DNA of 64,000 nucleotides from Neelides folsomi (lineage: Eukaryota; Arthropoda; Collembola; Neelipleona; Neelidae): assembly GCA_034687125.1 (NCBI GenBank), contig JAQGBZ010000017.1:1-64000 (forward strand), written 5' to 3'. This document shows, one piece after another, positions 20,901 to 61,900 of the stretch (its first letter is position 1; each line of letters opens with the position of its first letter). A program made the translations under genes and the position numbers. Below the pieces are notes generated by a model. It was given only the letters and a program-made list of their open reading frames with translations. It had not been told where the DNA came from and did not search any database.

Positions 20901-23527
20901 ATCCCTCAGACTGTCCGCCAAAGGCAACCCCAAGTGGGCAAATCTAAGGGTGTATCCCCTCGCTTTACCCACCGGTGCGGTGGTCGCTTCGCTTTCCACA
21001 GTCGGCACTCAAATCACCACGGCCGACCGCCACGCCGCCCCCAGCCCATCCAACTCCCTTGTTCAACATTATTAAATAACTGATTGAAAAAATCCCGGGG
21101 CGGCTTGACGGGCGGGGAGAAACCCTGTGGGGAATGAAGAGATCCATCCACTTCAATGGCTATTTCCTTTACAGTGAGTCCAGCCTGTTCGTGTCAAAGC
21201 GAAGGCTCATCCTCAAGACGTGCGGGACCACGACGCCGCTGATGTGTTTGCAGCCGCTGTTGAGACTCGTCAAGCAGTTTGCTGGCTTTGATGAAGTGGA
21301 GGTAATCGGGGAAATCAACCTTTGTATTGATACTCTCATCTCATGACTCCCTTTATCTTCCCAACCCAATACCAAGGAACACTTATCGCTCTTTACACTT
21401 CAAAAGATCCCACTTGAGCTGAGGCCAAGAAACGGCTCATGTTGTCCATCCCACGAGCTTCAAAACAATTGGGAATCATTGAGTAAACAATTATATTATT
21501 GAGTTGAACAATCCTGAGGTTCTATTTACTCAACGGCGATCTTTCAAAACATCTTGACTAACCAATGTTGATTCCAATATTGACAAAATTGAGCTAATAA
21601 TAGGGAAAGATAATTGTTTTCTCAATTTGCATTTCAATAACCAATTTGTAAATAATTAATCATAAGGCCTTATTCTGTTCCACGAATTTGGTCTTGGAAG
21701 AAAAAAAAACTTATAAATATTTACTTCTCAAAAATTGAATGACGAGTCTTAAAGTCACCGCCGATGTCTCGAACATATGCATTGATTTCTTCATTTTATG
21801 TCTAGGATATGTATTATGGATTTACCGTTATCGTTCGAAAGAGAACCCATGTTCGAAAGAAAGTCCTGCTCGAAAGAGAGCCCACCCCCACATACATTTT
21901 AACTAACATATCTATTAACTATATATATATCTTAATACATACCCTACATAATTATTAATTTTTCACGCGTTTTATTTAAAATGCCTTAAATAATACATTG
22001 TTTCTTTTAAACTCACAATTCAATGGAGTTAATTCATAAGATAAATAAATTTAAATGGAGAATCATTTGTAAAATTTTAATGAAAGCCCATGTTCGAAAG
22101 AGAGCCCTGCTCGAAAGAAAGGCCCCCTTTGAACCCAAATATTTTAAAGAGAGCCCGGGCTCTCTTTCGAACGATAATGGTATGTATGTATCTACTTGCT
22201 TATGTAAGATTGTTAAATTATTCAAAATGATGAATCTTGTAATTCGACTCGTAAGAAATTGATCCTACTCAATTGTAAACTTTAATTAGCCAATGGATTG
22301 AGTTAAATAATTCATCATAATGGCTTGCTTTTAATCTTTTAGGATGTGTTCTATTCACGAAAGAATTTCAAGCGTCCGGATCTTCAGCTAGATCCACATC
22401 AAAATTTCGAAGATGAAGTTCAGCTTTTGAATAGCTACTTCAAAGGTAAATTAGGTAAACTAGCCGTTTTTTAGAATTCATTAGTGCTTACAATTAGTTA
22501 GAGCTTAATACAGGGTATTTGATTCATTGGTAAAAAGTGCGAATGTTAGAAGGGGCAGCGTACTGCCTTGGCAGTGTGGACCGGGACTGTTGGTACCTGT
22601 ACACGCTTAATCCGCTGGGAGACGGCGAGGGAGGAGATCTTGAGCCAGACCAAACACTGGAGATACTCATGAGCGACCTCGACCCAGACGTCATGCGAAT
22701 CTTCACTAAAGAAGTTTGCAAAACGGGAGAAGAAGCCACGAAGGTACTTGCTTATTATTCAACAAGATGCCCGGGATGTCGGGATATTCATTTAGGTATT
22801 CATGAATTCATGAAATAAAGGGTTTTGAAGGAACTGAATTGATGATTGATGGTTGATTTAGAAATCCGGGATTCATCGGATCATCCCGAACATCGTTATC
22901 AACGATTTTCAATTTGAACCGTGCGGCTACTCGATGAACGGAATCTTCAAAAACGTGAGCTTTCCCTTGAGCTTTGCGAATGCGAATCCAATGCTATGGG
23001 TTTTTTTTGCAGTCGGAGAATGCCGGGAACGGGAATGTAAGTGATGGGCGTGCAGTGGAGAGAGATTCATTTGCTCTGCATCAGGGATCTTACATGACCA
23101 TTCACATCACTCCTGAGCCAGACTTCTCTTACGTCAGTTTCGAGACGAACGCTCCGCAGCGTGATTACAAAGACATTATTTCTCGTGTCCTAGACATTTT
23201 CAGACCCGGAAAGTTTGTCCTTACCATTTTCGCCAATAAGGTGAGTTTTCTTAATTTCCCAAATGACAATTTGTCCAGAATGCTAATTTCTTGTACTTTT
23301 AACTACTGATAAGATAAGAGTAGTACAGGTACATTGGTAGTATATGGAGAATACATTAAATAAAGACTGTGGGTTGTATTGTTTTTCAGGCGAGCGTGGC
23401 GTACAAGTTTGGAGCCGAGTTGGAGCGGCTTGTTGTTCTAAAGGAATGGCTGCGTTTGGACAGTCAATTCTGTCGGTTCAAGAACTATGACCTCACTTAC
23501 GCTCTCTACACTAAATTCCCCAGCTGA
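17985..23527 (+). CDS. AMD1: S-adenosylmethionine decarboxylase proenzyme
   Basis: Cytosolic pyruvoyl enzyme that makes decarboxylated AdoMet, the aminopropyl donor for spermidine and spermine. Exons: 17985-18109, 18859-18945, 21175-21301, 22343-22445, 22538-22743, 22862-22954, 23013 or 23085 to 23240, 23390-23527. The long form has 368 aa, the short form 344 (human 334). The self-cleavage site LSESS is present, cut expected between Glu72 and Ser73, which becomes the pyruvoyl group. Also seen: FEGVEKLLEIW (Glu14, Glu17), KTCGTTT (Cys87), PDQTLEILMSDLDP, CGYSMNG and the catalytic-His segment TIHITPEPDFSYVSFETN. Exon 4 has two possible phase-1 donors 12 nt apart. The exon 1 donor (GTCTAC) is weak. 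Intron 2 (2.2 kb) holds a GC-rich island and intron 3 a transposon. Confidence 0.93.
20560..21060. other. GC-rich island inside AdoMetDC intron 2
   Basis: A roughly 500-bp block much richer in GC than the rest of the intron. It contains short inverted repeats, for example CCTGCC and GGCAGG around a 9-nt loop near 20805-20830, and related GGCAACCCC boxes. Several short frames are open on both strands because stops are rare, but none resembles a protein. It could be an intronic enhancer or a structured RNA; I cannot decide. Confidence 0.5.
21825..22180. mobile_element. Non-autonomous TA-flanked transposon (element 1)
   Basis: A 356-bp insertion in AdoMetDC intron 3 flanked by TA (21823-21824 and 22181-22182). 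Terminal inverted repeats of about 24 bp begin CCGTTATCGTTCGAAAG on the left and CCATTATCGTTCGAAAG on the right, with two mismatches overall. Inside each end are 18-bp iterons with core TTCGAAAGAGAGCCC: starts at 21833, 21851 and 21869 on the left, 22092 and 22110 on the right, in the same orientation. A perfect 22-bp palindrome (arms AAAGAGAGCCC) lies at 22146-22167. No transposase is encoded. A TA duplication is typical of Tc1/mariner-like elements, but the superfamily is an inference. Confidence 0.8.
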
Positions 23528-58912: not shown

Positions 58913-61900
58913 ATGAGTGTCATCAATATTCAATCGATTGGGTAAGTGTTTAATTCAAATTCAAATTTTCCACTTTGGCTTTTAAAGAAATAAACTCTGT
59001 ATTTTGGGCATTTATTAGTCAATTCAAAGATTTAGTTTATGCCTTTATGTGACATTTCAAGACATTATTTAAAATTAAACGTGCAGAATAAATAAATGCT
59101 TCTTCAAAATGTAAGAGATCGGATGTAAAAATAATCGGTATTTCTTTTCACTGTTTTTTTACTCAATTTCGCTGATCATTGTCTTATTTCTTTCCTTCAT
59201 TATTTTATTACCAAACGACGAAACAGCACGGCTTTGAATAATGAGAATATTTTAAATGCATCATTGTTTTTAATTTTATAAAATGACTAAATTGTTATGT
59301 AATTTATAATTTAGGTTACTCTCAAGACCGAATAAATTAATTGAGATGCGGAGGCTCTCAACGTTAATGAAATTAGGAGCCCTGAGAGAGCGATTCCTTA
59401 AATATCTCGTTCTTGCTCCAGTCAGCTTTAACTCTACGGGCAAGTCGAAGTACCATGAGGCCCATTCAGGAGACAACCTGTGCCCTTCAATGATCAGGGG
59501 CATTGATTTCATTAGAGATCCACGATTAAATAAGGTATCAAAGACATGATTTATCTTTTTACATAAAAGATAAAGGCTATTTATGATGTAAAAGTAGTGA
59601 TTGTAATGAAGTAAATCATTTATATCATTTCCTATAATCCAATCATTTCCATTACATATCCTCAATCTTCATTGCTTATTTAAAATAATGTTATTAATTT
59701 AGTTTTTCTAGGTTTAGATAATATTGATCAAAATTTATATGATTTTGATATCTTTGAAGGGCATGGCATTTTCGTTAGAAGAACGGCAAGTTTTGGGAAT
59801 TCACGGACTTCTCCCACCGCGGTTCAAATCTCAAACAGAGCAAGTGAAGTTGTGCGTGGAGAACTTGAGAAGATATGAAAAAGACATCAACAAATATGTT
59901 TATCTTATGGGTCTACAAGTATGAAACGAATCAATTTTATTGCATTTAATGCTAAAGGCTAAAGGAAGTAAAAAGGCAGAATTTTAAATGACGAATTTGC
60001 AGGATCGGAATGAGAGACTCTTTTATAAGCTCCTTGCAGAGAACGTGGAAGAACTCATGCCTATAGTACGTAATTTTATGCAATTTTATTTAATTTTATC
60101 TTTGAAGGCGTTCGCGAATATTTTGTTCATTGTGATTTTCAGGTTTATACGCCAACTGTTGGTCTTGCTTGCCAAACTGCGGGGCTCATTTATAGGCGTC
60201 CGAGAGGTCTTTTTATAACGATCTATGACAGAGGATTCATTTATGATATTCTGAGGAATTGGTAATTTATCACTTGACTTTTAATGTTTTAATCAAATTA
60301 GCCCACAAAATTTATTTGAACTATTAAAAATTGAAAAGGAATTATTATTTAAGCATTTGAAAAAAATAAATTTGGAATTAGGCCTGAAAAAGAAGTAAGA
60401 GCCATTGTTGTAACTGATGGAGAAAGAATTCTTGGACTTGGAGATTTGGGCACCTACGGGATGGGAATTCCTGGTAAGATGCAAAACAATTGTTCCAGAA
60501 TTTGTCAAGTAGATGAGGATGAGTATCAATGATAAATGACGCCTTCAATTTCTTTCTTGTTTGTTAGTGGGGAAGTTGGCTCTTTACACCGCTTTGGCAG
60601 GAATTCAACCTCATCAATGTCTCCCTATTATTCTGGACGTCGGGACCAACACAGAGGTATTTGCTTACCGTGAATGGCCGATATCTGTCCCCCGGACACC
60701 TTTTATAATTATGACAGTGACCCCCAGACACATATCGGACCCGGACACATATCGAGTCCTGGACATAATTAAAATTGTAGTAAAAAATAATTTAAGATTT
60801 AATTTTATTAAAAAGCAATTGAAGAGTTTTCATCTGAATTCACACTTTCCTCGTTGTCTGAAATAACGGCTTCGTTGTCATTAAGTTCTATTACTATGTC
60901 CTCTTTCTATGTATTATTGGAATAATAACTTTATTCTCTTATTCTCTATACTTTTGAAGGAAAACTTTTACATTGTTGACTTAAAGTAATGTATTTAAAT
61001 GATATCAAAGAAATAGTGTTAATTATTGATCAAATAAAGCGTTCTATATTTTTAATCATTGCTCCTATACTGTGACACATTTTGAGACCCGGACACCTTT
61101 TAAAATCTCATGATTACCCCCCGGACACATTTCGAATCCGGACACATATCGAGCCCCGGACAGATATCGGTACTTTACGGTAAGTGGTTCCCCAAATCAC
61201 CCGAACTCATCTTCTTTTGACTCCTTAGCGCCTCATCGACGATCCATTCTATATTGGAATTAGACAGAAGCGAATCGTAGGTCAGGAATACGATGACTTC
61301 ATTCAAGAGTTTATGGAAGCTGTAGTGAAGAGATATGGGCAGAATACTCTCATTCAGGTACTTTTGCCAATAAGAGAGTAATAAGTTAATTGAATAGAGA
61401 AAAAGTGCCAAAGATTTTTTTATGCACAGCAAATTTCAATTTTTCTTGTACTTTCTTAGTTTGAAGATTTCGGACAACACAATGCGTTCCGTATATTGGA
61501 AAAATACAGGAATAAGTTCTGTACATTCAATGATGATATTCAAGGGACGGCGGCAGTAGCTTTGGCTGGGATGTACGCTTCTCTTCGTCTAACAGGGAAG
61601 AAGCTCTCTGAGAATAAATTCCTCTTCTTGGGCGCTGGCCAGGTTCATCATCCTTTCCATTAGATAACTCTTTACAATTGATTTATATAAACAATTTCAT
61701 GACGCTTCCATAACAGGCTGCCTTTGGGATTGCGCAACTTCTGCACAAAGCTCTTGTTAAAGATGGAATGTCTGAAAAAGATGCAGCCGAACGAATCTTT
61801 CTTTATGTAAATAAACATTATAATTCAGATATAAATAAATAGGTAGTCTATTCTTAAATATAAATAAATAATGTTTATTATGTTACTAATTTAAATTCAT

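Follow-up and report, generated by a model that had tools for sequence, protein, structure and literature searches.

Two short transposons of the springtail Neelides folsomi, probably from one Passer-like pogo family, keep a common ruler of subterminal sites and differ in the site cores

Two short transposons of the springtail Neelides folsomi carry presumed transposase docking sites at the same fixed distances from their ends, and the middles of these sites differ together from one element to the other. The elements, here called E1 and E2, lie in a window of 64,000 nucleotides, positions 1–64000 of contig JAQGBZ010000017.1 (assembly GCA_034687125.1), and were compared with relatives found by searching the whole 75.1-Mb assembly (840 contigs). 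Their pattern is that of the family at large, which holds such sites at set distances from the tips and varies the site middles jointly between lineages. E1 and E2 are probably internally deleted miniature inverted-repeat transposable elements (MITEs) from two lineages (A and F) of one Passer-like pogo family, in which the cores of putative CENP-B-box-like sites have been re-keyed together. More tentatively, the family could be a pogo radiation within a single genome that kept a near base-exact assembly ruler and re-keyed its cores lineage by lineage, with no cross-mobilisation of ends.

Re-reading the letters bore out what an initial annotation, made from the sequence alone, had described in both elements: their coordinates, TA flanks, CCRT at all four tips, inverted ends, and like-oriented iteron blocks at the two ends (Table 1). 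The inverted ends of E1 span 26 nt including the TA and are 92% complementary, those of E2 27 nt with flank letters counted (85%), while the direct blocks measure 49 nt at a spacing of 241 in E1 and 45 nt at a spacing of 397 in E2. Genome DNA searches returned 51 matching stretches for E1 and 41 for E2, which are lower bounds and count stretches rather than copies, and these many matches rule out either element as a lone accident. The annotation had named differing targets or tips, or a lack of further copies, as results that would speak against it; we looked for both and found that tips and target agree and that more copies exist. E2 itself appears to be intronic (window 60640–61230): a probable splice donor lies about 10 bases before it, in a gene that looks malic-enzyme-like by eye.

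The annotation had also called the iterons of the two elements unrelated, which we dismiss as an orientation error since opposite strands had been compared. The E2 unit that it gave, GGACACATATCGAG, runs against the direction of the E2 transposase, and its complement is CTCGATATGTGTCC; in the transposase direction the unit reads TCGA-TATGTGT-CC. On the transposase strand the E1 unit is TTCGAAAGAGAGCCC, that is, TCGA-AAGAGAG-CC. Placed in one orientation, both iterons are TCRA-N7-CC with the cores AAGAGAG (E1) and TATGTGT (E2), and outer letters, period and distances from the tip are common to the two. Ruler sites scored on the six outer letters only (TCRA...CC) start at distances of 11, 29 and 46 nt, counted from the 5′ tip; several lineages have, in addition, a half-site at about 78 and another site at about 96. 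At the 3′ end direct sites stand about 75 and 58 nt from the tip, and closer to it come a half-site at about 26 and, at 11, an inverted site. The inner blocks are direct at both ends, whereas the tips are inverted. When both window strands are scanned for a TAC that has two or all three of the 5′ ruler sites behind it (up to one outer mismatch tolerated per site), E1 (+, 21825) and E2 (−, 61180) are the only two matches.

Compared directly and without gaps, the two 5′ ends agree at 26 of their first 60 positions, against 15.5 after shuffling (26 or more in 17/5000 shuffles), and over the final 90 nt of the elements there are 31 identical letters, against 22.8 (161/5000). The control pairing of the E1 5′ end with the other end of E2 still scores 22/60 (200/5000 shuffles) because both tips are alike. 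The likeness of E1 and E2 taken alone is therefore modest, and their relatedness rests on the common ruler and on further lineages.

Those lineages were gathered by protein and family searches and from small genomic slices. A 5′ tip was located in 21 elements, lettered A to Z with gaps, of which 11 came from earlier sequence and 10 from 20 later slices; the ten slices left out were six duplicate lineages U or P and four with a missing or damaged tip (L102, L103, L108, L116), and K, L and M1 (L040, L042, L043) have no located tip. As some lettered groups have near-identical cores (e.g., G, Q and Y; D and T), the 21 ends do not amount to 21 independent cores. When up to one outer mismatch per site is allowed, they contain 81 sites, and 65 of these fall on the ruler; after dinucleotide shuffling of the same ends the means are 22 sites in all and 2.6 on the ruler, the highest on-ruler number in 500 shuffles being 8. 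Lineage M (L070) has the terminus CAGT and some sites shifted by one or two bases. Cores agree at 4.76 of 7 letters within an element (129 pairs, 21 5′ ends), against 2.92 for cores of different lineages taken at equal position (645 pairs), and 0/2000 permutations reach the within-element value. The same holds when both ends of 13 elements are taken together (5.01 within and 2.91 between, of 7; 0/2000 permutations). The contrast is largest at core letters 6 and 7, with agreements of 0.71 and 0.78 within an end vs. 0.35 and 0.32 between lineages.

In the loci examined for this, TA lies outside 50/54 E1-class tips; of the four exceptions, one (the left tip of L003) is genuine and three resemble chance matches. 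TA is present on both sides in 31/31 elements, a set picked for two clean tips in which the elements with a non-TA side (L003, L012, L036) are not included. The E2-class tip motif has TA at 71/132 rows, chance matches included, and two perfect motif matches (L012, L036) are without it; this motif is too permissive and thus unfit as a measure of TA. The shortest TA-flanked copies that we met are 99–118 bp long (L022, L005, L015, L094, L091) and retain the tips and some sites, so tips plus a few sites may suffice in cis, with little required beyond them. One of these loci, L005 (1450–1660), holds a 115-bp A-type element centred in a short flanking palindrome of roughly 25–27 bp.

Relatives of both the E1 and the E2 kind adjoin pieces of one transposase type. 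Exons next to such ends start like MPRRQF...FKLKV and continue with a Tc5-type helix-turn-helix (HTH) and then a DDE domain; HTH_Tnp_Tc5 scores 45.5 bits against a cut-off of 22.2 (E = 7.3e-12), and DDE_1 matches occur among the relatives. The last two acids of the catalytic motif are spaced 35 apart (DD35D) in 4/4 readable relatives, with N in place of the second D in L044. The other cut-and-paste superfamilies considered are ruled out by the TA target together with this DD35D pogo-type transposase. A profile built from five sequences of the DNA-binding region matches the CENP-B/DNA complex 1HLV across both domains (positions 3–127 of 145, E = 9.7e-5) and, at E = 0.032, Brinker 2GLO; a PDB search with one single transposase sequence gave no matches. 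Transposase pieces accompany the ruler shared with E1 and E2 in L041, L044, L047 and L070, and the last three of these hold both ends plus most or part of a gene that is decayed or deleted. The DNA-binding exon of L097 (C4:506716) is open, with no stop. A Brinker-like DNA-binding exon without a stop is also present in L102 (C92:146150–146700), where we saw no transposon end upstream; it possibly belongs to another element or to a host gene. At the level of the family, the annotation's idea of one transposase system with changing subterminal sites is supported by the TA target, the ruler, the linking lineages and the single transposase type.

Traces of this gene persist in the short elements. 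A tblastn search recovered from E2 a relic of the acidic C-terminal tail (Table 1), the query being the tail of relative L013, whose own match holds by construction. The start of the B transposase is kept in 3/3 B-type MITEs (71%, E = 2e-6), and a weak relic of the DNA-binding domain is found in 7/9 A-type copies (best E from 2e-4 to 3e-3). Both E1 and E2 are short, contain no transposase gene and share their ends with coding relatives, as MITEs do.

The annotation had no named family for this layout; the elements agree with the Passer group, within the pogo superfamily. We class the elements as putative Passer-like members by features rather than by a tree, using the Passer characters given in the accessible part of PMC7386202: a TA target, inverted ends (24–27 nt here, limit 40 bp), HTH_Tnp_Tc5 with or without BrkDBD, and DD35D. 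As far as the portions available of PMC7386202 and PMC9976928 describe it, Passer (DD35D) shares with our elements the TA target, the short inverted ends and a Tc5-type HTH combined with a Brinker-like HTH. Unlike Passer, the copies that we read have a gene with introns, and their iterons stand on a ruler in a direct block at each end. In the accessible text of PMC9976928 the only occurrence of "subterminal" is in the title of a reference, and the donor vectors used there were built from oligonucleotides of the terminal inverted repeats. Among the papers listed by a literature search that left most subscription papers and repeat databases outside, none describes such a layout in a pogo element in its title or the start of its abstract.

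The closest model for a single site is the CENP-B box, a 17-bp bipartite 4-7-4 site (PyTTCGTTGGAAPuCGGGA) that motifs in Tigger2 terminal inverted repeats resemble, according to the part of PMC4585704 available. Its form beside TCRA-N7-CC(GG), compared by eye, and the homologous two-domain DNA-binding region (1HLV) both point to likeness; unlike in the box, the words here are off by about one base on each side, and the sites stand in phased arrays at transposon ends. The hAT element Hermes has several short subterminal sites per end, asymmetric between ends, and needs strict phasing to the tip for assembly (PMC10368747, accessible part). We compare it in its manner of working only, that is, several short phased sites per end; Hermes differs in belonging to another superfamily and in its BED fingers, short motif and 8-bp target. 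Sleeping Beauty, a Tc1/mariner relative with an inverted-repeat/direct-repeat (IR/DR) arrangement, has an inner and an outer binding site per end, inverted between ends. Here, by contrast, the inner blocks of the two ends point the same way.

The ends might work as follows. Each 17-bp iteron would be one bipartite putative site for the two-HTH region of the transposase, as the box is for CENP-B, and the fixed distances would align several subunits of the transposase along each end, on a direct block and one tip site per end, the tip sites being inverted between ends. This alignment might then bring the catalytic domains to the TA. Coexisting lineages would diverge through joint change of their site cores, most likely because only sites suiting a lineage's own DNA-binding domain get mobilised and copied.

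Several observations weigh against this reading. The distance between DNA-binding domains follows that between cores across 15 lineages with r = 0.34 (124/5000), which falls to r = 0.14 (913/5000) without the outgroup M, and the recognition-helix columns show no correlation with the cores (r = 0.14 with M, 0.03 without). An earlier nine-entry comparison gave r = 0.46 (23/20000), and r = 0.17 (3830/20000) without its two M entries. Since the correlation weakens without M in both sets, we do not claim that cores track the DNA-binding domain. The site set is incomplete in some ends, P and V having a single on-ruler site each. No empty site was recovered, and among the nine A-type copies examined E1 itself and L080 gave no transposase relic. 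BrkDBD reaches 18.4 bits, under the Pfam cut-off of 23.4 (E = 0.002). As to the autonomous relative that the annotation proposed to seek, there are relatives with matching ends and transposase pieces, and no intact transposase gene among the sequences read, where some hits, such as C4:506716, were not followed downstream. A Glu in the recognition helix does pair with AG at the core end in 6/7 lineages vs. 0/9 (Fisher's exact test, P = 0.0009), in classes assigned by eye and post hoc among lineages that are not independent, with R an exception; we take this association as a lead only.

The absence of a correlation once M is excluded also speaks for a rival account, to which we give a real if minority chance, in which the cores are not read by the transposase at all. 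Recognition would be confined to the outer TCRA and CC and to the spacing, and the cores would drift, homogenised within an element by gene conversion among its repeats or by a common founder. The conserved part of the site does consist of the outer letters, and mixed tips show that elements recombine. Against drift, however, the inverted tip site and the distant direct-block sites have a common core, lineage after lineage, and within an end the agreement at core letters 6 and 7 is what functional letters would show, yet these two are the most divergent between lineages.

An unlikely alternative is the annotation's second idea, that short arrays were swapped between elements or expanded by slippage. 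Unit number does vary in some copies (L016 lacks one unit, L078 carries extra), 3/4 A2 elements combine a B-type 5′ tip with an A-type 3′ tip, and 2/4 G elements mix two tip sequences. In L048 (806–1110) two E-type 5′ ends follow each other within about 180 bp, as in a nested or tandem insertion, and such tandem ends could likewise come from swapping or slippage. Slippage would not preserve one ruler across lineages, as is observed, and had one array been swapped, the other end should still show the old core, which is seen only in a few mixed tips. We retain swapping and expansion as a minor contribution at most. Elements with two tips of different kinds are L076, L077, L081, L015 and L022, possible recombinants.

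Rather improbable is that the iterons let a host factor control the element's transcription or silencing and do not act in transposition. The 5′ block does lie upstream of the transposase start; yet the same block is also present at the 3′ end, one unit lies inside each tip, differing cores are ill-suited to a single host factor, and the 99–118-bp copies described above retain tips and some sites. Least credible by far is convergence of two unrelated families on one layout: the low identity of the E1 and E2 5′ ends speaks for it, but lineages with intermediate cores, the half-site near 78 in common, and a TA target and transposase type that do not differ speak against it.

Host genes recognised by Pfam in the window are Utp14 (15271–16659, +) and calcipressin (52423–53064, −). 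The RR cuticle-protein domain PF00379 has 39 matches genome-wide, three of them in the window (26367–26510, 29928–30074 and 40108–40302), which suggests an arthropod host, in line with the springtail source.

Table 1. Parts of E1 and E2, in window positions
Feature	Position	Strand	Basis
E1, non-autonomous, 356 bp, lineage A	21825..22180	+ (transposase direction of relatives)	letters and genome relatives
TA target duplication left of E1	21823..21824	.	read from sequence
TA target duplication right of E1	22181..22182	.	read from sequence
E1 5′ terminal inverted end	21825..21848	+	inverted-repeat pair I1
E1 3′ terminal inverted end	22157..22180	-	inverted-repeat pair I1
E1 iteron, ruler 11, TCGA AAGAGAA CC	21835..21847	+	six-letter scoring
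E1 iteron, ruler 29, one outer mismatch	21853..21865	+	six-letter scoring
E1 iteron, ruler 46	21870..21882	+	six-letter scoring
E1 3′ block iteron, 75 from tip	22094..22106	+	six-letter scoring
E1 3′ block iteron, 58 from tip, one outer mismatch	22111..22123	+	six-letter scoring
E1 inverted iteron inside 3′ tip, 11 from tip	22158..22170	-	six-letter scoring
E2, non-autonomous, 513 bp, lineage F	60668..61180	- (transposase direction)	letters and genome relatives
TA target duplication left of E2	60666..60667	.	read from sequence
TA target duplication right of E2	61181..61182	.	read from sequence
E2 iteron, ruler 11, CCGA TATCTGT CC, inside 5′ tip	61158..61170	-	six-letter scoring
E2 iteron, ruler 29	61140..61152	-	six-letter scoring
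E2 iteron, ruler 46	61123..61135	-	six-letter scoring
E2 half-site, ruler 78, TTAA AAGGTGT CC	61091..61103	-	site scoring
E2 weaker iteron, ruler 96	61073..61085	-	site scoring
Relic of transposase acidic C-terminal tail in E2	60814..60879	-	77% to tail from relative L013, E 7e-7
E2 3′ block iteron, about 75 from tip	60743..60755	-	six-letter scoring
E2 3′ block iteron, about 58 from tip, two outer mismatches	60726..60738	-	site scoring
E2 inverted iteron inside 3′ tip	60678..60690	+	six-letter scoring

The family provides a natural series within one genome, in which spacing is equal, site cores differ, and several members come with their own CENP-B-related DNA-binding domain. With such a series, the joint change of transposase and sites and the independence of coexisting lineages become directly testable.

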